From Imperialibacter sp. EC-SDR9 (lineage in GTDB: Bacteria > Bacteroidota > Bacteroidia > Cytophagales > Cyclobacteriaceae): DNA of 64,000 bases. This document shows positions 5,263-17,382 of the stretch, piece by piece. Each line of letters begins with the position of its first letter. Position 1 is the stretch's first letter. The stretch spans positions 593,857 through 657,856 of the forward strand of contig NZ_LR701637.1 of assembly GCF_902498805.1 (NCBI RefSeq). Direction: 5' to 3'. The translations under genes were made by a program, and so were the position numbers. The notes under the pieces are model-generated. The model did no database searches. It was not told the DNA's origin and saw only the letters and a program-made list of their open reading frames with translations.

Positions 5263-7257
5263 TCAGGCTTTCACTTTTTGATTGAGCTTCAGGATGTTGC
5301 CGGGTTTGCCAAACACGTACAGCCTGTCGTCGAGCTTTATTTCCGTGTCTCCGTCTATGTCGGTAAGCAGCTCTTGCCCTCTTTGGATGGCCAGAATGAA
5401 GAGCTTGTAGCGGCTTTTTATTCTCGATTCTGCAATGCTTTTTCCGACGATTGATTTATCCTCCCGTTCCAATACAACACATGCCATCTCCAGGTCCTGA
5501 ATGCTGAGATTTTTTGCTGCCTGTTCGGTTCTCATTAGCGGGCTGCGGAGCATTTCATAGCTACCTGAGCGAACCTCCTGCGTAAAGGCCTCTATCTCAT
5601 TTAGCGGAACCAGGTAGTGCCGAAGTACCCGGGTAAAAATTTCGATTGAAGTTTCAAACTCCTCTGGAATAACTTCGTCAGCGCCAAGCTTTTTTGATTC
5701 TTCAATTTCGTTGATATAGCGGGTGCGAACAATGATATGCACTGTGTTGGAGAACTCTCTGATCTTAGCGACTATTCTTTTGGTAGAAGAAGGATCGGAT
5801 ATGGCGATGACCACCACACGGGCTGACTGAATCTGAACATGCCTTAAAATCACATCGTCGCTGGCGTCTCCATACATTATCGGCTCACCTCTCTCTTTTT
5901 CCTGTTTTACAGTGGCCGGGTTCATTTCAACAATGGCGTATGGAATAGCGGCCTTTCGTGCTGCTTTTGCTACATTTTTACCATTGATGCCGTACCCAAT
6001 GATTACCAGATGATCTTTCAGTTCATGCTCGTCAGGCTCTTCTGTTTCAACATCAGACGACAGTGCCTGAATCTTTCTTACCAGCGGGTTCGGCGTTTTG
6101 CTATGCACCACATCGGTAATTTTGGAAGCATAACTGAGAATGAATGGCGTAAGTCCCATGGTGATCAACGACACACTGAGAAAATACTGATAGGTTAATG
6201 GGCTAAGGATTTGGTTTTCGATTCCTGTTGCCGACAACAAGAATGCAAATTCTCCTACCTGGCAGAGCATGAGGCCGGAAAGAATGACTGTTCGGAAGGG
6301 ATACCTGAGCAGGACCGCCCCAAAGCCAGCAATCAGCGCCTTTCCAAAAAGTGTTAGAAAAGTTAAAAGTAAAACAACGCTAAGGTGGTCAAAAAGGAAT
6401 TTGAGATCGAGCAGCATGCCGATCGACACAAAAAAGAAGCTGATAAATATTTCTCTGAATGGCAGAATATTGGCAGTGGCCTGATGGCTGTAGTCTGATT
6501 CAGAAATGATGAGTCCGGCAAAGAATGCCCCCAGTGCCAGCGACAGACCAATGGAAGAGGTGAGCCATGCTGTGGCAAAGCAGATAACGATAATTGTCAG
6601 AATAAAGAGCTCACGACTTTTTGCCTGGGCCACTCTGAACAGCAGTTTTGGAACAATATACCGTGCCATTATTAGCACCAGACCCACCACCGCAACTACT
6701 TTTAGCAATAAAATGAGAATGGTTTCGCCAATATTTCCGGTCTTACCGGCGATGATTGGGGTAAAAAGTATCATGGGAACGACAATGATGTCCTGAAAAA
6801 TCAGAATACCAAGGGCAATGCGGCCGTGAGGGGTATTGATCTCGCCTTTTTCCTGCAGCAGCTTTAGCACGATGGCGGTGGAGCTTAACGATACAAGAAA
6901 GCCTGCAAAAATCGACTCCCTGAACGACAGCCCAAACATGTAAACAATGCCAAATGTGACCAAAATCGTGCCAGCCACCTGCACGGTTCCGCCAACAAAT
7001 ACTGTTTTCCTTATAGATGTTAAATGTTTGAAAGAAAACTCCACACCAATGACAAAAAGCAGGAAAATCACACCAATCTCCGACAGCATCTCGACTTCGT
7101 GCGAGGCCTGAATGAGCCCCATGCCGTGTGGTCCGGCAACCATGCCCGTAGCCAAAAGACCCAAAATGGAAGGTAGCTTAAAGCGGTTGAAGATGAGAAT
7201 CATCAACACGGAAATGCCAAGGATGATGACTATTTCGGTAAGAATCGGTATTTGCAT
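5263..7257 (-). CDS. Kef-type K+/H+ antiporter with RCK (TrkA-N/TrkA-C) domains
   Basis: This 664-residue monovalent cation:proton antiporter-2 (CPA2) protein has a membrane domain of about 12 helices (residues 1-390) typical of Na+/H+ exchanger folds. It is followed by a TrkA-N Rossmann domain starting near residue 415 (HLVIIGYGINGKNVAKAA, dinucleotide-binding glycines) and a TrkA-C domain in the last 100 residues. Proteins of this type mediate K+ efflux or H+ exchange, gated by nucleotide or thiol ligands. No KefF/KefG ancillary gene is adjacent. The GTG/ATG choice is clear, since the ATG at 7257 begins directly before the first helix. Confidence 0.93.
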   Translation of the reverse strand: MQIPILTEIVIILGISVLMILIFNRFKLPSILGLLATGMVAGPHGMGLIQASHEVEMLSEIGVIFLLFVIGVEFSFKHLTSIRKTVFVGGTVQVAGTILVTFGIVYMFGLSFRESIFAGFLVSLSSTAIVLKLLQEKGEINTPHGRIALGILIFQDIIVVPMILFTPIIAGKTGNIGETILILLLKVVAVVGLVLIMARYIVPKLLFRVAQAKSRELFILTIIVICFATAWLTSSIGLSLALGAFFAGLIISESDYSHQATANILPFREIFISFFFVSIGMLLDLKFLFDHLSVVLLLTFLTLFGKALIAGFGAVLLRYPFRTVILSGLMLCQVGEFAFLLSATGIENQILSPLTYQYFLSVSLITMGLTPFILSYASKITDVVHSKTPNPLVRKIQALSSDVETEEPDEHELKDHLVIIGYGINGKNVAKAARKAAIPYAIVEMNPATVKQEKERGEPIMYGDASDDVILRHVQIQSARVVVIAISDPSSTKRIVAKIREFSNTVHIIVRTRYINEIEESKKLGADEVIPEEFETSIEIFTRVLRHYLVPLNEIEAFTQEVRSGSYEMLRSPLMRTEQAAKNLSIQDLEMACVVLEREDKSIVGKSIAESRIKSRYKLFILAIQRGQELLTDIDGDTEIKLDDRLYVFGKPGNILKLNQKVKA

Positions 7258-7417
7258 AGTGGTTTTGTTGGGTGCAAATTACTAAAAGCTGGGGCAAGGA
7301 AGTTGGCATGAGTGAAATAGTTCAGTTTCAATTGGTGACAAAAATTGACATAAATTAACGCAAGGGTGACACTCGCTTTGTTTGTTATGATCATATTGAA
7401 GTTAAATCACCACCACC

Positions 7418-8095
7418 ATGAAACTACTCTCAGCCTTTTTTATCAACCTTTTCTTTCTGAGTGTTATGCCCTCTATGGCGCAGTCAAACGATTATGTAGC
7501 TCACGAAAAGGACTTTGGCCACTACACCTCTCTGGTTGTCGATGTTCAGGCCAATATTGAGGTGGATGCCAGTCAGCCTTCTCATGGCACTTTAGTGGTG
7601 TCTGAGGCTGATTTCGAGAACCTTAAATGGGAGCTACTGGGAGAAACATTGATTATTTCTGCGAAAGAAGGCAAATCTCTGGCTGGCCCGATTAATTTGA
7701 AGCTCGGTTCCCCTAACCTGGCCCGTATCGAGTCGACACATGAGTCGATCATTTATATGCATCACGTGAACGGAGAGAGTTTGAGCCTGGATCTACTCAA
7801 GGGCACTGTAAAGCTTGAAGGTAAAGTGGAAAACCTTCATGTGATGGCTGAGAAGGGCAGACTATATGGGTCAGGGCTTGAGTCAAAAAGCGCAGAAGTG
7901 AGGATTTGGGATGAGGGCTCGGTCGTCATACATGCAACTGAGTCGCTGGAAATAGAAGCAACCAACAATGGGAGAGTTATTTACAACGGCTCTCCGTCCA
8001 AAGTTACCAAGAGCACAAGTAGTGGTGGCGTGATCATGTCGGAGGAAGCTTTGCAGCAGCAGCGGGAAGTCGAGTACGTGAATTTTGGAGTGTAG
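7418..8095 (+). CDS. Exported DUF2807 (GIN-type head domain) protein
   Basis: This 225-residue protein has a clear signal peptide (MKLLSAFFINLFFLSVMPSMAQ) and then a beta-rich body with the pattern of the DUF2807 / putative auto-transporter adhesin head GIN domain: VDVQANIEVDASQPSHGTL near the start, followed by repeated short beta strands (ARIESTHESIIYMHH, GRLYGSGLESKSAEV, VIYNGSPSKVTKS). Such domains form right-handed beta-helical or propeller-like structures and are common, poorly characterised surface or periplasmic proteins in Bacteroidota. Its 3' end lies 3 bases from the end of the convergent lipoprotein gene. Function is unknown. Confidence 0.75.
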   Translation: MKLLSAFFINLFFLSVMPSMAQSNDYVAHEKDFGHYTSLVVDVQANIEVDASQPSHGTLVVSEADFENLKWELLGETLIISAKEGKSLAGPINLKLGSPNLARIESTHESIIYMHHVNGESLSLDLLKGTVKLEGKVENLHVMAEKGRLYGSGLESKSAEVRIWDEGSVVIHATESLEIEATNNGRVIYNGSPSKVTKSTSSGGVIMSEEALQQQREVEYVNFGV

Positions 8096-8098
8096 GCA

Positions 8099-9322
8099 CT
8101 ACAAATTTCCTGATGCGTCAATCTTAAGTATCCAGATATCATTTAGCCCAGCCCCCTCTGACTCGGTGCTGCCTAAGATATAGTAGTAGTCGCCTATCTG
8201 GATAATTCCGCTACCAGTGTCCCTGTTTTTACCCCCAAATACCTTAGACCATTCCTCAACCAAACCCGGGCCAACTTTTTTAACCACCAGGTCTCGTGTA
8301 GACGGCTGATCGCCAACTAATATGAAATTTCCTTCGGCAGTTAAAAGTAGGTCTTTGGCGAATATGTCAATAAAACTAGCATTCATTGGATCATCGGAAG
8401 ACGATAAGTTTAGCTCATGCAGAATGGTCTGAGATTTTGCTCCTCCAGCACTGGTACCTGAAGCCATCAGAAAAGCTACATCAGAGCCGTCCATTTTCTG
8501 GACATAGGAACCGGTACTATTTGTGATGTTTTCAATTTCGAAATCGAGAGTATATGCGAAATATATTTGTCCAAAATGGTCTTTCGGCATGTAGAAGCAT
8601 GAAAAACCTCTGTACGCATCGTTTTCATACTCTACGACGCTAGGGTATGTTGCAGCCAGAACGAGGTAGTTGTCATTTTTATCAATTGATATACCTTTCG
8701 AAATCATTCCTGGACCGTACAAGCCAATATAATGTCCGGAACCCAACAAGTCTCCCGCAGAACTGAATTCGATAACGACACTCATTTGCAAGCCGACCCC
8801 GGAAAAGCCGTCATCTTCATTTTTCAAATTTCCAACAGCCAGGTACTTTCCATTCTCGCTTCCTATCATACCCGTTATTTCGTCGCCGATTCCCAGGTCG
8901 TGAACTTTTTCCCAGTTAATTGATCCATCAGAAGACGACAGGTTGAGAATATAGGAGTTTGACTCGCCTTCGATATCATAGGTTTTGCCAAAGACAATAA
9001 TTTCATCAGTGGCATTAAGCATCAATCCATTTGGAACAGAGAATTTTCTGGTCTTAATCGTTCGATCAAACAGGATGTTGCCGTCTGCGGAAAGTTTGAT
9101 GACTCTTGCAAATGACGAATCCGAAGCTAAGTTTTGACTTTGTCCAAGTATAATAATTTCTCCAACTGAAGTAGTCTTAATATCAATTCCAAAGTCATCG
9201 CCCACTCCACCGAAAGTTTTGTCCCAGGTAGACTTGGCTGGCGACTCAATATCATTTCCGCACCGGGCCATGATAAAAGCCGTAGTTACTAAAATTAGTA
9301 TTGAAAAAACCTTATTTCTCAT
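8099..9322 (-). CDS. Putative lipoprotein with beta-propeller-like repeats
   Basis: This 407-residue protein opens with a hydrophobic signal and a Cys at residue 21 in a lipobox-like context (FIMARCGN). Arg at -1 is atypical for signal peptidase II, so lipidation is uncertain. The body repeats a weak unit such as WDKTFGGVGDDFG near the N-terminus and WSKVFGGKNRDTGSG near the C-terminus, each followed by strand-rich sequence (IIILGQSQNLASDSSF, YYILGSTESEGAGLND). This is the pattern of PQQ/Kelch-like or delta-60-type propeller proteins of Bacteroidota. No catalytic motif was found. A promoter-like pair (9340-9368) lies just upstream. Function is unknown. Confidence 0.7.
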   Translation of the reverse strand: MRNKVFSILILVTTAFIMARCGNDIESPAKSTWDKTFGGVGDDFGIDIKTTSVGEIIILGQSQNLASDSSFARVIKLSADGNILFDRTIKTRKFSVPNGLMLNATDEIIVFGKTYDIEGESNSYILNLSSSDGSINWEKVHDLGIGDEITGMIGSENGKYLAVGNLKNEDDGFSGVGLQMSVVIEFSSAGDLLGSGHYIGLYGPGMISKGISIDKNDNYLVLAATYPSVVEYENDAYRGFSCFYMPKDHFGQIYFAYTLDFEIENITNSTGSYVQKMDGSDVAFLMASGTSAGGAKSQTILHELNLSSSDDPMNASFIDIFAKDLLLTAEGNFILVGDQPSTRDLVVKKVGPGLVEEWSKVFGGKNRDTGSGIIQIGDYYYILGSTESEGAGLNDIWILKIDASGNL

Positions 9323-9339
9323 ACTGTATCTATGTTAGA

Positions 9340-9368
9340 CAAAAGTAGAAAATACAAGGCTAATTCAA
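9340..9368 (-). promoter_or_regulatory. Bacteroidota-type promoter before lipoprotein gene
   Basis: On the minus strand, TTG (9366-9368) and TACTTTTG (9340-9347) are spaced by 18 bases, matching the -33/-7 consensus. The box lies 17 bases upstream of the ATG at 9322. Confidence 0.55.
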
Positions 9369-9425
9369 CGAAAGTTCTTATTATTAAATATCTGAAGAGG
9401 TAAATGAATACCTTTACGACAAACT

Positions 9426-10943
9426 CTAGCTGAAAACTAATTTCAAATGTTCTTTGTCAGGGACCCTATTAGAAGTCAATTTACTAGCCACCACGTACAC
9501 CAGAAAAGAAACTACAAAGGCCGGAAAGACCTCATGAACCTGTTCCATGCCTTCAAAATTGAACCGGATTCCGAAGCGCCAGATCACATTCACCACCATG
9601 CCGGCAACCATGCTGGATAGCGCTCCGATGTCGGTGCCCCAGCGCAGGTAGAGCCCACCGAAAATGGTCGGGAAAAAGCTGGCGGCGAAAACTGACCCTG
9701 CAAAGGAAGACATTTCTACCACGCCCGCCGGAGGATACAGTGTGAAAAGGAAAACCACTACACAATAGCCAAGCATGGCCCACTTTGTGCGGCCGACAAT
9801 TTTCTTCTCCTCCATCGGCTTCCAGATATTCCAGATGTCTTTAACGATGGAAGTACCGGCGATAAACGTGACAGAGGCTAGCGAGGACATGCCAGCGGCA
9901 AAAAGCCCCATCATGCAAATGCCACTTACTGTTGGGCTATTGAGTTTGTTGAACATTACACCAACAACTTCATCCGTATTGTTGATGAGATAAGCAGCCT
10001 CTTCATCACTCACCATCACATGCACCAAAGCCCCCACGCACATTACACAAATCAGCGAAATACCAAGGAAAACAGGCGTCCAGGTCATGGCAAACTTCAT
10101 GCTGGCCTTGTCTTTGATCGAGTAAAAACGAATAATAAGCTTCGGGTCGGACACCTGCTTCATGCCTATCGTAAGCCCAATGGCAATGATATAGTACATG
10201 CTTGCCACTCCCCCAAACGTCATCATGCCGTCGCCAATAGGGTTTCCATCGGCCGTTACATGCTGGAGGTTGGCGAGCTTCTCCATTAGTGGTGAGTAGC
10301 CTCCTGCAAAGTAGAAAGGGATAATCAGCATAATGATAGCCACGATAAACATGAGGATGCCCTGCACCGCATCCGTCCACATCACGCCGTACATACCGCC
10401 CGCCATCGTATAGCCACAGGTGAAGAAGATCAGGATAAACGCACCAAGTCCGTAGTCGACTTCCAGCACGGTATTGAGCAAGTTAGCGCCGCCTTTGGCA
10501 ATGCCGGTCATATACCAGAGTGTGGCAAAAAGAATAATGAAGGAGGACAGCACCCTGATGCTCTTGGAAAGATTGCTTTGGTAGCGCAGGTGAAAATAGT
10601 CGGGCACCGTCACCGATTTTAACCGTATGGATTGACTGCGCATTCTGGGGCCCATCACCAGCCATGAGATCATGCAGAACACTACCCAAAAGAGCGCCAC
10701 ATAAGCCCAGGAAAGACCATATTTGAAAGACTCACCAGCCTGACCGATGTAGGTGCTGGTGCTAATGAACGTAGAGAAGAAGGCAAGAGAAACTACCCAA
10801 CCTGGTATTTTTCGATTGGCCAGATAGTACTCATTTACATTTTGGGAAGCCCTCTTTTGAAAGTGCCAGCCAATGTAGATAATAAGACCTACATAAACGG
10901 CAATCAACAAAAGTGTCAGGCCATGTTGCGCTAAGTAGTCCAT
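9426..10943 (-). CDS. Sodium:solute symporter (SSS family)
   Basis: This 505-residue transporter has about 13 hydrophobic helices and the LeuT-fold SSS signatures: an N-terminal helix followed by VNEYYLANRKIPGWVVSLAFFSTFISTSTYIG (key positions residues 36-67), GYTMAGGMYGVMWTDAVQG in the middle, and FAAGMSSLASVTFIAGTSIVKDI later. Family members couple Na+ to uptake of carboxylates, amino acids or vitamins. It is the last gene of an apparent minus-strand operon after a malonyl-CoA synthetase-like gene and a 41-residue membrane protein; the microprotein stop is 5 bases before this ATG. That context suggests a malonate- or carboxylate-like substrate, which is inference only. PanF-like pantothenate transport is the main alternative. 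Confidence 0.9.
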   Translation of the reverse strand: MDYLAQHGLTLLLIAVYVGLIIYIGWHFQKRASQNVNEYYLANRKIPGWVVSLAFFSTFISTSTYIGQAGESFKYGLSWAYVALFWVVFCMISWLVMGPRMRSQSIRLKSVTVPDYFHLRYQSNLSKSIRVLSSFIILFATLWYMTGIAKGGANLLNTVLEVDYGLGAFILIFFTCGYTMAGGMYGVMWTDAVQGILMFIVAIIMLIIPFYFAGGYSPLMEKLANLQHVTADGNPIGDGMMTFGGVASMYYIIAIGLTIGMKQVSDPKLIIRFYSIKDKASMKFAMTWTPVFLGISLICVMCVGALVHVMVSDEEAAYLINNTDEVVGVMFNKLNSPTVSGICMMGLFAAGMSSLASVTFIAGTSIVKDIWNIWKPMEEKKIVGRTKWAMLGYCVVVFLFTLYPPAGVVEMSSFAGSVFAASFFPTIFGGLYLRWGTDIGALSSMVAGMVVNVIWRFGIRFNFEGMEQVHEVFPAFVVSFLVYVVASKLTSNRVPDKEHLKLVFS

Positions 10944-10948
10944 GTTGA

Positions 10949-11074
10949 TCAGTGTCCCGGGGGGTTGTTGGTTTCGTCGTCCTTAATGCTAGCGCTGAAG
11001 CTGGAAACCAGAAAGCCATTAAGTGCAAGAAGTAAAAGCATCATCCAAAAGGGAAAGCTGATCCAGAAGCTCAT
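10949..11074 (-). CDS. 41-residue single-helix membrane microprotein (symporter accessory candidate)
   Basis: This short ORF is read by hand. It starts MSFWISFPFWMM, continues with a leucine-rich helix to about residue 25, then has a polar acidic tail (IKDDETNNPPGH). It sits 9 bases after the stop of the synthetase gene and 5 bases before the ATG of the sodium:solute symporter, with no room for another start, so it looks like a real middle gene of the operon. Small membrane proteins immediately upstream of SSS transporters are known elsewhere (for example YhdT before PanF, and small symporter accessory proteins). A role in assembly or regulation of the transporter is inference. No Shine-Dalgarno is evident, which is normal in Bacteroidota. 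Confidence 0.7.
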   Translation of the reverse strand: MSFWISFPFWMMLLLLALNGFLVSSFSASIKDDETNNPPGH

Positions 11075-11083
11075 AGCGTTGGG

Positions 11084-12568
11084 TTAGGTGTTGAACAATT
11101 TCTTCACGTCGTTTTTTGTCACTTTTCCCATTGCATTTCGGGGAAGCTCCGAAAGTGACAGGTATTTTCTCGGCACCCGGTAGCCCGGCATGCGAGCTTT
11201 GAGCCAGGGGGTGAGTTCTTCAGTGTCAAGCGAGGAGTCACCAACAATGGCAGCAGCCACTATTTCCCCCCATTCTTCATCGGGAAGGCCAACTACGGCG
11301 CAATCGCTGACGGCCGGATGGCTTCTGAGCACTTCTTCAATCTCCAGGGCCGATATTTTGTATCCACCCGATTTAATGATATCCACTGAATTCCTGCCAA
11401 GAATTTTGTAGTAGCCATTTTCAACCTCGGCAACATCGCCTGTTTTGAACCAGCCGTCGGAAGTAAAGGAAGTCATCGTTGCCTCGGGCTTCTGCCAATA
11501 TTCTTTGAAGACATTTTCTCCTTTTACCTGAATTTCGCCAGGCACAGAAGTGTTTTTCAGTTCAACATTTGCCTCATCCGCCAGCCTGATGCTGACCTCT
11601 GGCAGCGGTAGTCCAATAAACCCAGCTTTTCTTTCTCCCTCGTAGGGGTTGCTGATGGCCATGCCTATCTCAGTCATGCCGTAGCGCTCCAGCAGCCTGT
11701 GCCCGCTTATTGTTTCCCATTTTTCCATCACCGACACCGGCAACGCTGCAGAGCCCGACACCATTAACCGGAAGTTTCTCATGGCGGCAGACAGGGCTTC
11801 TTGCTGCTTTTTATCTAAGCTTTCGAAGTGAGCAATGAGTTTGAAATAGATGGTGGGCACGGCCATGAACACATTGAGCTGGCCTGCTGCAAATAGGGAG
11901 AATACTTTTTCTGCTGAAAAGGAAGGTAAGAACTCACAAGCAGCTCCCGACCACAAGGCACAGCTAACCACGTTAATGATGCCGTGCACGTGATGAAGTG
12001 GCAAAATGCATAAAGTGTGATCTGTAGATGTCCAGCCCCAGGCGGTGACGAGTGTAGAAATTTGCGCCTCCAGGTTAGCATGCGTCGTCACCACTCCCTT
12101 CGGCAGGTTGGTGGTGCCACTGGTATACAGGATCATCGCCCGGCGTGACTTTTCAATCTGCGGCAGTGCTGCTGGCTTGCTGTCGTTTTCAGGTTCCAGC
12201 ACAATGAATGTGATTGACTTGGTCTCAGCATAGGACTGTAGTATTTCCCTGAACGACGGTGAAACTACAACCACCGAGGCCTCGGTGTCCTCAATCACAT
12301 ACTGAAGCGATGGAAGAGGGTGGCTCGTGCATAACGGCACCGCAACACCTCCAGCCTGCCAAATACCCCATTGCACCTTGACGTAGTCAAACCCTGGCTC
12401 TACCAGAAAAGCAATTCGTCGTTCCTTTAAATCAGAAGCGCCATCTAATAGGAGCGTGGCAAACTGCTGAGAGGCAAAAAGAAGCTGTTGGTAAGTGTAC
12501 GAACTGCCATTTGATACAATGGCAGCTTTCTGAGCGTAAATTTTAGCCTTTTGAAAGAGTTGTAGCAT
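11084..12568 (-). CDS. ACSF3/MatB-like malonyl-CoA (acyl-CoA) synthetase
   Basis: This 494-residue ANL-superfamily adenylate-forming enzyme has the ATP-binding P-loop motif YTSGTTNLPKG at residues 148-158, LLERYGMTEIGMAISNP in the middle (adenylation A5 motif), the hinge GRNSVDIIKSGGYKI, and the C-terminal catalytic lysine region NAMGKVTKNDVKK. Compared with family members I know, the stretches LPLHHVHGI, NVFMAVPTIYFKLI and RLMVSGSAALPVSVMEKW match ACSF3/MatB malonyl- or methylmalonyl-CoA synthetases much better than long-chain acyl-CoA ligases. The expected reaction is malonate + ATP + CoA to malonyl-CoA. It is the first gene of a three-gene operon with a membrane microprotein and a sodium:solute symporter. 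Another short dicarboxylate is possible as substrate. Confidence 0.85.
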   Translation of the reverse strand: MLQLFQKAKIYAQKAAIVSNGSSYTYQQLLFASQQFATLLLDGASDLKERRIAFLVEPGFDYVKVQWGIWQAGGVAVPLCTSHPLPSLQYVIEDTEASVVVVSPSFREILQSYAETKSITFIVLEPENDSKPAALPQIEKSRRAMILYTSGTTNLPKGVVTTHANLEAQISTLVTAWGWTSTDHTLCILPLHHVHGIINVVSCALWSGAACEFLPSFSAEKVFSLFAAGQLNVFMAVPTIYFKLIAHFESLDKKQQEALSAAMRNFRLMVSGSAALPVSVMEKWETISGHRLLERYGMTEIGMAISNPYEGERKAGFIGLPLPEVSIRLADEANVELKNTSVPGEIQVKGENVFKEYWQKPEATMTSFTSDGWFKTGDVAEVENGYYKILGRNSVDIIKSGGYKISALEIEEVLRSHPAVSDCAVVGLPDEEWGEIVAAAIVGDSSLDTEELTPWLKARMPGYRVPRKYLSLSELPRNAMGKVTKNDVKKLFNT

Positions 12569-12663
12569 TGAGTAGGTTCCTAACTAACAACATAAGCAAA
12601 ATTGACCCGACCAACAAGCGTTTACTCCTGGTTGGCGACGACTTGGTTTGACCAAAGTAAGCG

Positions 12664-13443
12664 CTACCTGCTTTTTGAGAACATCCAGGGAAGCAGGTCA
12701 GGCTCCACATAGGCATTTTCCCAGCTATTGTGATTGACACCCGGATATTCTGTGAACCGCACATCGGCTCCTATCTCCTTCAGCTTTTCGTTAAGTTTCC
12801 TTGAATTGTCGACGGCAATCACGCCATCCACACTGCCGTGGAAGAGCCAAAAGGGTATTTTTGCCTGCTTTTTTGAGTAGGCATTGAGGTCGGCGCCACC
12901 ACAGACGGCGGCAATGGCAGCGAACATTTTCGGATACCGATACACAGCCTCTAACGACCCCATGCCGCCCATGGAGAGGCCGGTGATGTAGACCCGCTTG
13001 CTATCGACGGACTCACTTTTCGCCACGCTGTTCGTAAGGTCAATGGCCAGTTGCAAGCCTTTGGTGATGTCGTAGCCGTAGTTAAAATCAAGCTCCAGTG
13101 GGTACTTTGTTCTTTCAAATTTGACCGATGCCCAGTATGAGTCCTCAGGACATTGCGGGGCGATGACGATACAGGGGAACTTGCTCCTGTTTTCAGGTTC
13201 CAGAAAAGCTTTCACGCCATTCACCAGCTGCTTTTCATTGTCAGTACCCCGTTCACCCCCACCATGTAGAAACAGCACCAAGGGGTACTTTTTAGTCTTG
13301 TCATAGTTTTCTGGATACAAAATCCGGTAGGGCAGCACGTCGCCTTTTTCGCTGATAAATTCTTTTTTCTCAAAAAGAGAGAAGTCCTGAGCACGACTTG
13401 TGAATGTGGCCGTCAGGATTAGCAGGGTGAGTAGTTTGTTCAT
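12664..13443 (-). CDS. Secreted alpha/beta-hydrolase esterase
   Basis: This 259-residue protein has a signal peptide (MNKLLTLLILTATFTSRAQ) and a complete catalytic triad: nucleophile Ser157 in GLSMGG, Asp206 in HGSVDGVI and His238 in PGVNHNSW. An oxyanion-hole HGGGERG occurs near residue 60. The family is the phospholipase/carboxylesterase and prolyl-oligopeptidase-like esterases often attached to carbohydrate degradation systems (for example removing acyl or feruloyl decorations). It starts 3 bases after the stop of the GH3 gene upstream, so the two are almost certainly co-transcribed and probably act on the same glycan in the periplasm. The exact ester substrate is unknown. Confidence 0.85.
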   Translation of the reverse strand: MNKLLTLLILTATFTSRAQDFSLFEKKEFISEKGDVLPYRILYPENYDKTKKYPLVLFLHGGGERGTDNEKQLVNGVKAFLEPENRSKFPCIVIAPQCPEDSYWASVKFERTKYPLELDFNYGYDITKGLQLAIDLTNSVAKSESVDSKRVYITGLSMGGMGSLEAVYRYPKMFAAIAAVCGGADLNAYSKKQAKIPFWLFHGSVDGVIAVDNSRKLNEKLKEIGADVRFTEYPGVNHNSWENAYVEPDLLPWMFSKSR

Positions 13444-13446
13444 AGT

Positions 13447-15336
13447 CTATTCGTAAGATAAGCCAAAACCAAATGTATATAGTGGATCTTTGCTATCATA
13501 AGGAACATCTTCCATTTGGTTTCTTACTGCTTCCATTGAAGAAGGCAGTTCGAACGGCAGCTTGCCGCCGGGAGATGCTTTGCCAAAGATGACGTCCAGG
13601 ACAGCCTCATCGGTGGCACCAAAGTCGGCGATCAGCGCTTTGGATCCGGCACTTATTTCAGGGATCACTGCTGGCCGATCCAGGTAGATGTTGACAATGG
13701 TTGGAACGGTGTTTAGCAGCTCTAAAATCTCTTTCTTTTCGGGGTTCTTGAAGTCCAGGTCGCCATGATGAAAGCCACGGGCCATAAAGTTTTCTGACTC
13801 AACAGGCACCCAGGGCGTATTGATACGGATGATGGCAAAATCAGCCTCTTTGGGCGATTTCACAACGGTTCCGTACCGGGCGGCAATAGAGTCGGCTATG
13901 TTTTTTACGAAGATTTTAGGCTTGCCCTGCAGGGGCAGCACGTTTCCATCGTTTTTCAGCAAGGTCATGGCCCTTCTTTGGGAGGCTTGACCAGCGGCGA
14001 TAGACGAAGGCTTGCCTATTACCCTGGCGACATTGGCTTCGTCCACAAACGGGTTGTCGAACAGCCCGAGTTGGAATTTCTGCTTCAATAATCTTCGGGC
14101 CGACTCGTCGATTCTGGCCTCTGTTACTTTTCCTGCTTCAACAAGGTTCACTACCAGACCAGGCACACTTTCACCGCCAAATTGATCTACTCCAGCGTCG
14201 ATGGCTTTTTTCACTCTGTCTTCTTCGCTCAGGTTTTCAACGCCCCAGGCACGGGCCGGCCAGATGGTGTTACCCATATTTGCATCGGTAATCAGGCCCC
14301 AGTCGGTGCAGACTACGCCGTCGAATTTATATTTGTTTCTCAGCAGATCCGTAATGATCATTTTGTTGAACGCCATCGCTACATTTTCGTCTGTCTGATC
14401 GGTTGGAATGCCATAGTAAGGCATGATGGAGGCGGTGCCAGCTTCAAATGCTGCTTCGAAAGGAATGAGGTGGTAGTCGAAGTTGTTGCCCGGATAAACC
14501 TGGCCTTTTTGAAATTCAAAGTGGGGATCCAGCCCGTCCTTTTGCGGGCCGCCACCCGGAAAATGCTTGGTCATGGTGGCCACACTATTAGGCCCCAGCG
14601 TGTCTCCCTGAAAACCTTTGATATATGCTTTGACCAGCTTGGCCGTTAATTCAGCGTCCTCGCCGAAAGTGCCGCTGATACGGGGCCAACGAGGCTCAGT
14701 GGCCAGATCAATCTGGGGGTGAAGTGACACCTTCATGCCCACGGCAAGGTATTCGCCTCTGGCAATTTCGGCAAATTGGCGTACCATCTGCGGATCGCCT
14801 ATCGCTGCAAAACCCAGCGTTTCGCACCATTGCGAGAATGAGTTGGCTGCCATAGCAAATATATTGGCACTGAAGTGATTGCGGGGATCGGAGGCAATGG
14901 TGACTGGTATGCCCAGCCTGGAGTCCTCAGCAACCTTTTGCATGGCATTGTAGCCTTTGGCCAGCATTTGCACATCGGGAATCTGCCAGAAATTGAAGTG
15001 GTTCATCTTCATTTCGTTGATCGATTGCAGTGACGACGGCAGCCTGGCGGCAAAGCCCTCTGCTCCGGGTTGTTTTTCCAGCGTGCCATCGGCGTTTACA
15101 AAAGTGCCGTTGATGAACATGAGGCCTGCTTTTTCTTCGATGGTCATTTGAGCAAGCAGATCGCTTACTCTTTCTTCAACCGGTGCTGATGAATCTTCAT
15201 ACACATCCATTTTACCGTTTTTATTCAGGTCACGATAGTCAACCGTCTTGTTTGTTGGGCTGTTGCACGAGCAGACGCTGAGCAGCGAAGCCAAAAGAAG
15301 TGACGAGGCAAGTTTGAAGGGGGTTGTGTGATGCAT
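13447..15336 (-). CDS. Glycoside hydrolase family 3 beta-glucosidase-like lipoprotein
   Basis: This 629-residue protein starts at the ATG at 15336, because a lipoprotein-type signal (FKLASSLLLASLLSVCSC) follows; the open frame further upstream is an artefact running into the divergent regulator. After the signal comes a calcium-loop-like DLNKNGKMDVYED (about residues 36-48), then the GH3 TIM barrel with KHFPGGG and the catalytic nucleophile Asp345 in VVCTDWG, then the GH3 C-terminal alpha/beta sandwich with MTLLKNDGNVLPL. Expected activity is exo-hydrolysis of beta-glucosides from the periplasm or cell surface. It is co-transcribed with the esterase and divergent from an NrtR-like regulator. 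Confidence 0.93.
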   Translation of the reverse strand: MHHTTPFKLASSLLLASLLSVCSCNSPTNKTVDYRDLNKNGKMDVYEDSSAPVEERVSDLLAQMTIEEKAGLMFINGTFVNADGTLEKQPGAEGFAARLPSSLQSINEMKMNHFNFWQIPDVQMLAKGYNAMQKVAEDSRLGIPVTIASDPRNHFSANIFAMAANSFSQWCETLGFAAIGDPQMVRQFAEIARGEYLAVGMKVSLHPQIDLATEPRWPRISGTFGEDAELTAKLVKAYIKGFQGDTLGPNSVATMTKHFPGGGPQKDGLDPHFEFQKGQVYPGNNFDYHLIPFEAAFEAGTASIMPYYGIPTDQTDENVAMAFNKMIITDLLRNKYKFDGVVCTDWGLITDANMGNTIWPARAWGVENLSEEDRVKKAIDAGVDQFGGESVPGLVVNLVEAGKVTEARIDESARRLLKQKFQLGLFDNPFVDEANVARVIGKPSSIAAGQASQRRAMTLLKNDGNVLPLQGKPKIFVKNIADSIAARYGTVVKSPKEADFAIIRINTPWVPVESENFMARGFHHGDLDFKNPEKKEILELLNTVPTIVNIYLDRPAVIPEISAGSKALIADFGATDEAVLDVIFGKASPGGKLPFELPSSMEAVRNQMEDVPYDSKDPLYTFGFGLSYE

Positions 15337-15353
15337 GGCCGTCAAATTAATGT

Positions 15354-15413
15354 GTGATATTGACGCAATGTAATATTTTCTTTTTAAACTTGAATGACGT
15401 AATATTCTTTTTC
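15354..15413. promoter_or_regulatory. Repeated GTRATATT sites in the GH3/regulator divergent region
   Basis: The 108-base gap between the GH3 gene and the regulator contains GTGATATT (15354-15361), GTAATATT (15370-15377) and GTAATATT (15399-15406). The last two are preceded by TGACG (15361 and 15395) and followed by a CTTTTT run. Direct repeats in a divergent promoter are the expected place for the regulator's binding sites; that they are operators is inference. Confidence 0.4.
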
Positions 15414-15444
15414 GTATTTGCCGGACAGATTGATTTGTTAGAAA

Positions 15445-16200
15445 ATGTCGGAATTTCTGGATACCGCCGCTGAGAGATACCACCCCGGATTGTCGGTGGA
15501 CTGCGTGATCTTTGGCTTTCATGAGAATGAGCTGAAAGTGCTGCTGCTGAAAATGAAGCATACGGCAAAATGGGCGCTCCCCGGTGGATTTGTTGAAAAA
15601 CAGGAACACATGGATAAAGCAGCTATTCGTGTGCTGGAGAAGCGGACTGGTTTGGCCGACATTTTTCTTCAGCAATTTCACACGTTTGGCGACCCCGCCA
15701 GGCACGACCATGAAATGGACCTGGAGCTTTTTAAGCAAAGTGGCCGGGATCCGGTAAAGGATCACTGGTTTTTGCAGCGCTTTATTACAGTGGGCTACTA
15801 TGCCCTGATCGAGTTTTCGAAAGCGAATCCACGACCCGACGACATTTCTGAAGCCTGTGAGTGGAAAAGCATTGACCAGTTGCCAGCGATGATACTTGAT
15901 CACAGGAAGATACTGGAAAAAGCACTGGATACACTCAGGTTTCAAATCAACTACCAGCCCATCGGGCACAAGCTTTTGCCTGTAAAATTTACTATGCCTG
16001 AGCTCCAGAAGCTATACGAGACTATTCTGGGCAAAGAGCTGGATCGCAGGAATTTCCAGCGCAAGATGCTGGCCTATGGTATTTTGAAAGACCTTGGCGA
16101 GAGAAGAAAAGGGGGTGCTCACAAAGCACCTTATCTCTACAGTTTTGACGTAAAAAAATACAACGCTGCCTTAAAAATTGGGCTGAAGGGGAGCTGGTAA
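15445..16200 (+). CDS. NrtR-type transcriptional regulator with degenerate Nudix domain
   Basis: This 251-residue protein has an N-terminal Nudix-fold domain (about residues 1-140) and a C-terminal winged-helix region (about 155-240, LPVKFTMPELQKLYETILG), the architecture of NrtR/AraR/XylR regulators. In the Nudix box the canonical catalytic REUxEE reads RVLEKR (Arg62, Val63, Glu65, Lys66, Arg67), so hydrolase chemistry is very unlikely and the domain should act as a ligand sensor. In Bacteroidota such proteins often control sugar catabolism and sense phosphorylated sugars or nucleotide sugars. It is divergent from the GH3-esterase operon, its probable target. The start at 15445 is the only sensible Met. 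Confidence 0.85.
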   Translation: MSEFLDTAAERYHPGLSVDCVIFGFHENELKVLLLKMKHTAKWALPGGFVEKQEHMDKAAIRVLEKRTGLADIFLQQFHTFGDPARHDHEMDLELFKQSGRDPVKDHWFLQRFITVGYYALIEFSKANPRPDDISEACEWKSIDQLPAMILDHRKILEKALDTLRFQINYQPIGHKLLPVKFTMPELQKLYETILGKELDRRNFQRKMLAYGILKDLGERRKGGAHKAPYLYSFDVKKYNAALKIGLKGSW

Positions 16201-16235
16201 AACCCTTACTAAGCCGCAAGACTTAGTAAGGGTTT
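16200..16235. terminator. Bidirectional hairpin between regulator and DinB gene
   Basis: A perfect 14-bp stem (AAACCCTTACTAAG at 16200-16213 and its complement at 16222-16235) has an 8-base loop and sits between two convergent genes, starting at the last base of the upstream stop. T-runs are short (TTTT on the minus strand). Confidence 0.7.
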
Positions 16236-16243
16236 AAAAAGTA

Positions 16244-16768
16244 TTAAAATAACTTCTCGTTCGGCGGAGTGGCACCAGCCAGCCTGATATATGGAGTCGT
16301 TTGTCCCCTGTGGTGTGTTTGGTGCTCAAAGGCTTTGCCGAAGGCTACCTCCCGGGTCATGTCCATACCAAAGAGATTAACCGTTTCGGCCATCTGAGCC
16401 GCAGTCATTCCCTTTAGCGCATTAATCACGAAATCATAACTGTCCGACACCATTTTTACAGTCACTTCTTTCGACTTGCCTGCAGACTTTTCCGCTCCAC
16501 CACGCTCAATGGGGCTGGCCGTTCCGGTGATCCCGGCTGTAAATCCAAAGTTCGCATCTGCCAGGTGCAGCAGCTGCTGTTCGAACGATCTGATTTCAGG
16601 CGTAGGCTTATAGCCATACTTGTCGGCTGGCATGGCCTCCAGGTATTCCAAAGTGAAGGCCTTGGCCCTTTCCCATTCCTTAACAAGGTAGGCTGGGTCT
16701 GCAGCTAAGCATTTGCTGCCACTGACCAATGCAAGTAGCGCAAGCGTTAGATAAAAATTCTTTTTCAT
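16244..16768 (-). CDS. Exported DinB-family protein
   Basis: This 174-residue protein has an N-terminal signal (MKKNFYLTLALLALVSGSKCLA) and a DinB-like four-helix bundle. Metal-ligand candidate histidines are spread as in the family: LLHLADANFGF near residue 67 and HQTHHRGQ near 150. DinB-fold proteins bind Zn2+ or Ni2+ and include thiol transferases, but most Bacteroidota members are uncharacterised. A signal peptide on a DinB protein is less usual and implies a periplasmic role. No operon partner is evident. Confidence 0.85.
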   Translation of the reverse strand: MKKNFYLTLALLALVSGSKCLAADPAYLVKEWERAKAFTLEYLEAMPADKYGYKPTPEIRSFEQQLLHLADANFGFTAGITGTASPIERGGAEKSAGKSKEVTVKMVSDSYDFVINALKGMTAAQMAETVNLFGMDMTREVAFGKAFEHQTHHRGQTTPYIRLAGATPPNEKLF

Positions 16769-16857
16769 GGTTGTAGGGTTTTAATAAGGGTATGAAAATA
16801 CGCCTTTTTCAAATTATTAAGGTAAGCCCTTGAATAAATTAAAGTTACCTTTTTAGA

Positions 16858-17382
16858 TTAACCCAATGGCAGCTTCATCAGAAGGTCGGTTTGTGGGTCG
16901 TTGCCCAGCATAAAGGTGTGACTACCGAATTGCTGGAAGCCATATCGTTTGTAAAATCGGATGGCTCCTTCATTTTTCTCCCACACACCCAGCCAAAGGT
17001 ATGGGAACCGCCCCGCTTTGCCGATGCTGATGGCATAGTCCAACAGCTGTTGTCCTATGCCTTTCCCCTGGTGTGCTGGCATCACATAAATGCGCTGAAG
17101 CTCAATGCCCGGCTCGGTGGCGATGTCTGTTTGCGCTGCGCCGTGATTAAGCTTGATATAGCCGACAACCTCCCCGCCCATCATGGCCAAGTAAAACTCC
17201 GACCCCTCGGTGTCGAGTTCCTTTTTCGTTTGTTGCAGTGAAAAGGCCTCTGCCATATAGGCTTCAAAATCGTCCGGGTCGTTGAGGTGCTGGAAGCCCA
17301 CCCGAAAGGTTAGCTCTGCTATGTCAAGCAGGGTCTCTGCCTGATCGGTTCCGACTCTTTTGAATGAGGTAGTTTTACTCAT
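16858..17382 (-). CDS. GNAT acetyltransferase, PaiA-like
   Basis: This 174-residue GCN5-related N-acetyltransferase has the acetyl-CoA pyrophosphate-binding motif HQGKGIGQQLL (Q/RxxGxG/A type) following the strand IELQRIYVMPA. The C-terminal part (LGVWEKNEGAIRFYKRYGFQQFGSHTFMLG, about residues 130-160) resembles the PaiA spermidine/polyamine acetyltransferases. Substrate assignment to polyamines is by resemblance only. It starts 2 bases after the stop of the hypothetical gene upstream, so the two form an operon. Confidence 0.85.
   Translation of the reverse strand: MSKTTSFKRVGTDQAETLLDIAELTFRVGFQHLNDPDDFEAYMAEAFSLQQTKKELDTEGSEFYLAMMGGEVVGYIKLNHGAAQTDIATEPGIELQRIYVMPAHQGKGIGQQLLDYAISIGKAGRFPYLWLGVWEKNEGAIRFYKRYGFQQFGSHTFMLGNDPQTDLLMKLPLG

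Follow-up and report, generated by a model that had tools for sequence, protein, structure and literature searches.

The malonate-utilization set described for Bradyrhizobium comprises MadL and MadM together with malonate decarboxylase genes, according to the pertinent sections of PMC4861915. MadL and MadM (PF03817 and PF03818) make up a malonate:Na+ symporter built from one small and one larger membrane protein. In E. coli, the malonate transporters MadLM, MdcF and MatC have been compared by expressing each together with MatB and reading out flaviolin (PMC12303837). A small protein encoded beside a gene of the solute:sodium symporter (SSS) family is likewise an arrangement already known. The short membrane proteins of TIGR03647 (Na_symport_sm, with the large subunit TIGR03648) and NF045580 (symport_access) adjoin SSS genes, and E. 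coli yhdT overlaps panF (noted in PMC5120140). As described in the relevant parts of a 2023 paper, SGLT2 requires the single-helix subunit MAP17 for transport; MAP17 contacts the thirteenth transmembrane helix (TM13), and its role in the conformational change of SGLT2 was there still to be clarified (PMC10803289). Here we describe a three-gene cassette from a 64,000-nucleotide stretch (hereafter, the window) of the 6.8 Mb genome of Imperialibacter sp. EC-SDR9 (contig NZ_LR701637.1, positions 593,857 to 657,856). In it an ACSF3/MatB-like acyl-CoA synthetase, a 41-residue single-helix membrane microprotein and an SSS symporter follow one another. We consider it highly probable that this operon serves malonate import and activation, with uptake by an SSS symporter bearing a microprotein subunit and subsequent MatB-like CoA ligation.

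The three open reading frames (ORFs) all lie on the minus strand and are transcribed in the order synthetase, microprotein, symporter, with 9 nt (11075-11083) between the first two and 5 nt (10944-10948) between the last two, an order and spacing already given in a preliminary description of the sequence. Scans for promoters and terminators gave no excess over shuffled sequences. When 13 larger ORFs lying between 3 and 22 kb of the window were compared with the loci of related symporters, relatives were present there for the symporter and the synthetase only; a single further match was weak (26-29% identity along some 130-140 residues). We therefore take the shared cassette to be these genes. 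We propose that the SSS symporter and its 41-aa accessory subunit would import malonate with Na+, and that the ACSF3/MatB-like enzyme would then form malonyl-CoA from malonate using ATP and CoA. The microprotein-symporter pair would be a functional replacement of the two-subunit symporter MadLM. The microprotein helix would most likely pack on the symporter, which would depend on it for activity, stability or surface level, as SGLT2 does on MAP17. This scheme builds on the observed gene order and its conservation, on an observed exchange of transporters and enzymes between loci, and on the carboxylate-binding residues present in the enzyme.

By itself, an ORF of 41 aa would argue only weakly for a gene, as 106 ORFs of ≥30 aa overlap the region 7000-17000 of the window. 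Named-species genomes scanned with the symporter yielded 16 related loci, 15 of them with upstream DNA, and an ORF of 31-47 aa was found upstream of the symporter in every one of these (15/15) as well as in the genus mate G028. These ORFs share the pattern MDFLTaFPYW..I......NAi.V.... A second symporter search covered 155 genomes from the class of G803 (the genome of the Syntrophaceae metagenome-assembled genome [MAG] L046; we take this class to be Syntrophia). It found the symporter in 14 genomes and the microprotein in all 13 with sufficient upstream DNA. With duplicates removed, 29/29 testable loci carry a microprotein homologue upstream of their SSS gene. Two loci cut by contig ends, L045 and L076 (the latter at 158 nt), fall outside this count; L139 (from G787) has the same layout as L039 (Spirosoma profusum) and was taken as no separate locus, and L070 is the same place as L046. 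Three residues (M1, N19 and V23) are invariant across the alignment of the 29 microproteins, and the ratio of nonsynonymous to synonymous rates (dN/dS) was 0.03-0.32 in seven pairs with finite dS (an eighth pair was saturated). From the 29/29 positional homologues and dN/dS values below 1, the sequence comparisons identify the small ORF as a genuine gene under purifying selection. The preliminary description had staked its interpretation on such conservation, and the ORF is indeed kept in close and distant relatives alike.

This conservation already refutes the idea of a functionless chance ORF, to which we assign next to no probability, even with short ORFs being frequent in the region and with a simple scan showing short hydrophobic ORFs ahead of several more SSS genes in the genome. 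Alternatively, the small ORF could be a translated leader linking synthetase and symporter translation, with no protein subunit as its product, a role that would suit its close spacing to both neighbours in the window and the 4-nt overlap of the microprotein with the symporter start in four Spirosoma loci. However, the amino-acid sequence is conserved between phyla, not the position alone, and synonymous rates exceed nonsynonymous rates. The gap to the symporter is moreover 39-279 nt in many loci (279 nt in L049), which tight coupling does not need. We regard a leader as quite improbable and a symporter accessory subunit, by analogy with MAP17, as the probable identity of the microprotein.

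Among 291 genomes searched from the window's order (probably Cytophagales), strong microprotein matches and SSS matches (E 1e-60) occurred in the same two genomes only. The 41-aa query found one clear homologue beyond the window's own genome among 148 genomes of the family (G028, E 3e-18), and a phylum sample of 395 genomes returned only the window's own copy (1/395). Matches in 67 further family genomes, all at E 0.0085 or worse, were judged to be chance and left unused; weak order-level profile matches in G681 (E 0.002) and G576 (E 0.008) were dropped, no SSS-like frame being visible by eye within the surrounding 3 kb. No member of a 17-row microprotein alignment (A1) had a credible Pfam or NCBIfam match, and no member of the 29-row alignment had a credible Pfam or PHROGs match. 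Pfam/NCBIfam matches of single microproteins (best E 0.02, to a herpesvirus protein model) and a match to an ABC permease in the PDB (E 0.0032) were set aside as chance membrane-helix similarity. In an AlphaFold2 model the microprotein is predicted as one helix (residues 3-35; mean pLDDT 77.6).

The same synthetase occurs elsewhere with a different transporter. Within the same 291 genomes the synthetase (E 1e-90) was present in 56, two of which hold the symporter. From the other 54 we took 19 loci (16 among the closest, 3 more distant). At 17/19 of these loci, which have no SSS gene, homologues of MadL and MadM were the next two genes after the synthetase (tblastn; the MadM match in L134 comes in two pieces). 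Pfam confirmed both proteins at three of the 17 loci and MadM at a fourth, and the two exceptions without MadLM carry the most divergent synthetases of the 19. MadL and MadM were found in none of the 30 symporter loci compared (L034-L049, L070-L083), nor in L139. MadM (PF03818) was unmatched in 32/32 SSS-bearing genome handles (31 if G787 and G796 are the same genome), including the window's genome; as a positive control, the same search matched 4/4 MadLM genomes. Thus the two transport systems are alike in following the same synthetase type, in pairing one small with one larger membrane protein and in their predicted substrate. They differ in protein family, the window pair being an SSS symporter with a 41-aa single-helix protein, and a family scan placed the window proteins outside PF03817 and PF03818. 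In a synthetase tree the 15 SSS-linked rows did not form one clade (approximately unbiased test, p 0.0135), which implies at least two transporter changes; the tree, whose outgroup branch is very long, gives no firm direction to the exchange between MadLM and SSS.

Conversely, the same microprotein-symporter pair occurs with other enzymes. At the loci from the class of G803 the synthetase was absent (0/14), and in 11/14 the pair stands beside either MdcA, the malonate decarboxylase alpha subunit, or a family-III CoA-transferase. MdcA adjoins the pair in 5/14 loci, and two intact copies that were scanned scored 853 and 851 bits, above the TIGR01110 cut-off of 789; the CoA-transferase adjoins it in six more (BLAST clustering; one of the six scanned). 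MmdA-like carboxyltransferases lie close by in three loci, two of which were scanned; the model matched is one for methylmalonyl-CoA decarboxylase, under its cut-off. In L082, MdcA occupies the position that the synthetase holds in the window. MdcA systems thus resemble the window cassette in the adjoining microprotein-SSS pair, and differ in that an ATP-dependent ligase fills the role of MdcA in the window.

Together, the synthetase-MadLM loci and the loci joining the pair to MdcA or a CoA-transferase argue that microprotein and SSS symporter are a core standing in for MadLM. Judged by gene neighborhoods, the pair is the constant element and is joined to different activating enzymes; in relatives it is the enzyme that stays constant and the transporter behind it that changes. 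The earlier proposal that the microprotein assists the transporter gains from its constant co-occurrence with the symporter next to differing activating enzymes; the part of that proposal implying physical interaction stays conditional. The position of the microprotein between both genes, near each, and the plausibility of co-localized uptake and activation could also suggest that it belongs to the synthetase, for example as a membrane anchor. Yet the microprotein-symporter pair is kept in 13 loci with no synthetase nearby, and the synthetase is kept with MadLM in 17 loci whose genomes had no microprotein in the order-wide search, making a synthetase partner very unlikely. Returning to the symporter subunit, we see roughly even chances for a broader proposal. 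Obligately paired, an SSS protein and a single-helix protein of 30-55 aa would form a malonate:Na+ transporter of two subunits that is unrelated to MadLM. A bacterial microprotein would there have acquired a MAP17-like role independently, and the pair would move across phyla as one unit, joined in each host to the malonate-activating enzyme in use, be it a MatB-like ligase, MdcA or a CoA-transferase.

Two features of the MdcA loci are recorded here in their own right. The mdcA gene is split into two ORFs at L046:6610-8204 (equivalent to L070:8355-9949), beside two undetermined bases, and is a single ORF in L071-L073; the split is probably an assembly matter. In L082, a 93-aa ORF (L082:12871-13149) beside MdcA and the microprotein-SSS pair matches the N-terminus of the dicarboxylate carrier MatC (PF07158/MatC_N, 29.5 bits) and is perhaps the remnant of a replaced malonate carrier.

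The synthetase exceeded the cut-offs of both PF00501 (222.9 bits; cut-off 29.9) and PF13193 (62.2 bits; cut-off 24.5). Its best model out of 107 from NCBIfam was NF005702, 'malonyl-CoA synthase' (381.5 bits), and its closest PDB matches were the malonyl-CoA synthetase (MatB) structures 4fuq and 4fut. The ACSF3/MatB-like identity first suggested for the enzyme is supported. Human ACSF3 is presumably a related enzyme. The mat operon, which we take to include MatA and MatC, is not reproduced in the window cassette. Eleven residues specific to MatB-type enzymes have been catalogued, and His209, Ser277 and Arg299 (RpMatB numbering) contact or line the malonyl carboxylate site (Table 9 and associated text of PMC6122825). 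H209, S277 and R299 are present in 15/15 cassette synthetases, which accordingly have a His/Ser/Arg pocket and not the Phe/Gly/Gly commonest across the superfamily. This pocket speaks, indirectly, against the strong preference for long-chain acids that the preliminary description had named as a refutation. Met247 is conserved in 15/15 as well, bringing the MatB-specific residues found in all rows to 4/11. The window enzyme thus shares domain make-up, nearest PDB relatives and pocket with MatB/ACSF3, and it is predicted from sequence to be a malonyl-CoA (possibly methylmalonyl-CoA) synthetase. It lies upstream of the microprotein in 16/16 testable Bacteroidota/Rhodothermaceae loci.

Since the MatB pocket is kept, the synthetase occurs with MadLM and the pair occurs with MdcA or a CoA-transferase, we favor malonate as the substrate, and the malonate-type unit of the preliminary description finds support in the same two exchanges. 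The substrate could instead be another small dicarboxylate, with methylmalonate or else some substituted malonate as the main candidate, the microprotein still being a transporter subunit. MatB enzymes are described also as methylmalonyl-CoA synthetases, and the pocket residues do not separate the two (PMC6122825, in its treatment of MatB). The MmdA-like carboxyltransferases and the mesaconate/glutarate-like CoA-transferase near the pair in the class of G803 would fit such a substrate too. Malonate and methylmalonate cannot be separated on sequence, but the families that replace parts of the cassette, MadL/MadM and MdcA, are malonate-named, and we hold a different dicarboxylate to be unlikely. 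As a separate observation on synthetase loci, the region upstream of the synthetase encodes, in both L041:593-4629 and L043:453-4645, an alpha/beta hydrolase, a cupin-like protein and an oxidoreductase of curcumin-reductase-like type (families scanned in L041).

The symporter belongs to the SSS family, as had been recognized at the outset, with 195.1 bits to PF00474 (cut-off 22.8) and 185.6 bits to TIGR00813 'sss', barely above its cut-off of 184. Scores stayed below the SSS equivalog cut-offs for PutP (203.5 vs 515.5 bits), PanF (194.1 vs 328.05), ActP (40.8 vs 1099.25) and VC_2705 (TIGR03648; 111.2 vs 320.75). An AlphaFold2 model (m674ea2519f3d; mean pLDDT 76.7, pTM 0.81) has the predicted SSS-type LeuT fold, and its nearest solved folds are SGLT2, SGLT1, SiaT and vSGLT, the first two being closest. 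Symporter relatives bearing the same microprotein occur in two distant groups, and plasmid records gave no symporter match at E 1e-80. Every member of the symporter clade has Lys150, which falls within a predicted helix (124-160), and among 14 other SSS proteins the position is Lys in none and Arg in 2; it is a candidate, from sequence, for a carboxylate contact.

The SGLT2-MAP17 complex is comparable in transporter fold (SGLT2 entries, TMq 0.65-0.79) and in its one-helix partner. It differs in that MAP17 has no sequence match to the window microprotein, and the likeness would be one of role by analogy, not homology. A microprotein profile (A2) matched only 7ahc (E 0.0032) and 4bgn (E 0.83) among PDB chains and not MAP17, whose complexes with SGLT2 have PDB entries but the presence of whose chain in the searched set was unchecked. 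The small-subunit families TIGR03647 and NF045580 (a model of 33 positions) matched 0/17 of the A1 microproteins at E 1 or better, and the window symporter is far below the cut-off for the TIGR03648 large subunit. Other small companions occur in the same genome. A TIGR03647/TIGR03648 (VC_2705 type) small/large pair lies at L091 / L097 (G000:C39:23384-24739). At L096 / L099 (G000:C12:9585-11042) an SSS gene has a hydrophobic ORF of 48 aa (37 aa from an inner Met) 15 nt upstream, with no NCBIfam match; this ORF could represent another small companion of symporters, as yet without a name.

Several observations weigh against the malonate cassette as we read it. For the enzyme, the 381.5 bits are below the NF005702 cut-off of 558, M486 is present in only 11/15 cassette synthetases, and five outer MatB-specific positions (M240, F273, H285, E351 and M364) differ in 15/15 rows. 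R255 is replaced by Lys in 15/15, a conservative change at a residue that in MatB contacts the CoA phosphate (as given in PMC6122825). Malonyl-CoA decarboxylase (PF05292) was matched in 0/18 genomes, and since the control was without a match too, this result was not used as evidence. In the class of G803, 3/14 loci (L074, L076 and L081) have neither MdcA nor a CoA-transferase. The scanned CoA-transferase came closest to mesaconate and glutarate enzymes without reaching their cut-offs, and another dicarboxylate is therefore possible at the CoA-transferase loci. The window microprotein evolves faster than its symporter: it is 83% identical to its counterpart in the genus mate, against 97% for the symporter, and dN/dS is 0.32 vs 0.02. 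The SGLT2 fold match is no better than that to SGLT1, which was solved without MAP17, and so fold likeness alone does not speak for the microprotein. The absences reported above are not absolute, as the best few candidates were scored per genome (5 for SSS, 25 for the microprotein) and many genomes were MAGs. Overall, the account draws on sequence and predicted structures; the substrate, the Na+ coupling and the binding and role of the microprotein are what we infer.

If the account is true, malonate joins the substrates of SSS/SLC5 transporters, and annotators could give a substrate to symporters whose sole matches at present are to PutP/PanF-type models and fall short of the cut-offs. A small-protein family with no model in the libraries searched is thereby described, and the cassette would offer a compact bacterial system for asking how one extra helix controls an SLC5-type transporter. 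The exchange with MadLM lends itself to a clean genetic test, either transporter being placeable behind the same synthetase. Our results support a cassette for malonate uptake and activation whose transporter is of the SSS family and whose microprotein partner matches no family model in the searched libraries. Searches of open-access full text, from which most subscription papers are absent, gave no title or opening of an abstract dealing with malonate transport by an SSS protein or with the microprotein. By term search, a 2021 review on the prokaryotic members of the SSS family does not contain 'malonate', 'subunit' or 'YhdT' in its main text (PMC7918813).

The cassette and the genes that flank it are listed below.

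Table 1. Cassette genes and neighboring features, in window coordinates.
Feature	Coordinates	Strand	Basis	Prediction or position
ACSF3/MatB-like acyl-CoA synthetase, 494 aa	11084-12568	minus	PF00501 + PF13193	predicted malonyl-CoA (possibly methylmalonyl-CoA) synthetase
Single-helix membrane microprotein, 41 aa	10949-11074	minus	conservation upstream of SSS	predicted symporter accessory subunit
SSS-family (TC 2.A.21 / SLC5-type) symporter, 505 aa	9426-10943	minus	PF00474	predicted Na+-coupled malonate importer
Alpha/beta hydrolase	12664-13443		family scan	gene upstream of synthetase
Gene without credible family	8099-9322		family scan	downstream of symporter
Glycoside hydrolase family 3 type protein	13447-15969	minus	beta-glucosidase/xylosidase models, all under cut-off

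For the glycoside hydrolase family 3 type protein, the ORF opens at a GTG that probably lies ahead of the true start. On the plus strand, the window ORF at 15445-16200, presumably NUDIX-like from its sequence, was outside the 13-ORF comparison; by eye it resembles L034:2463-3212, which lies directly upstream of the synthetase in a Runella locus.

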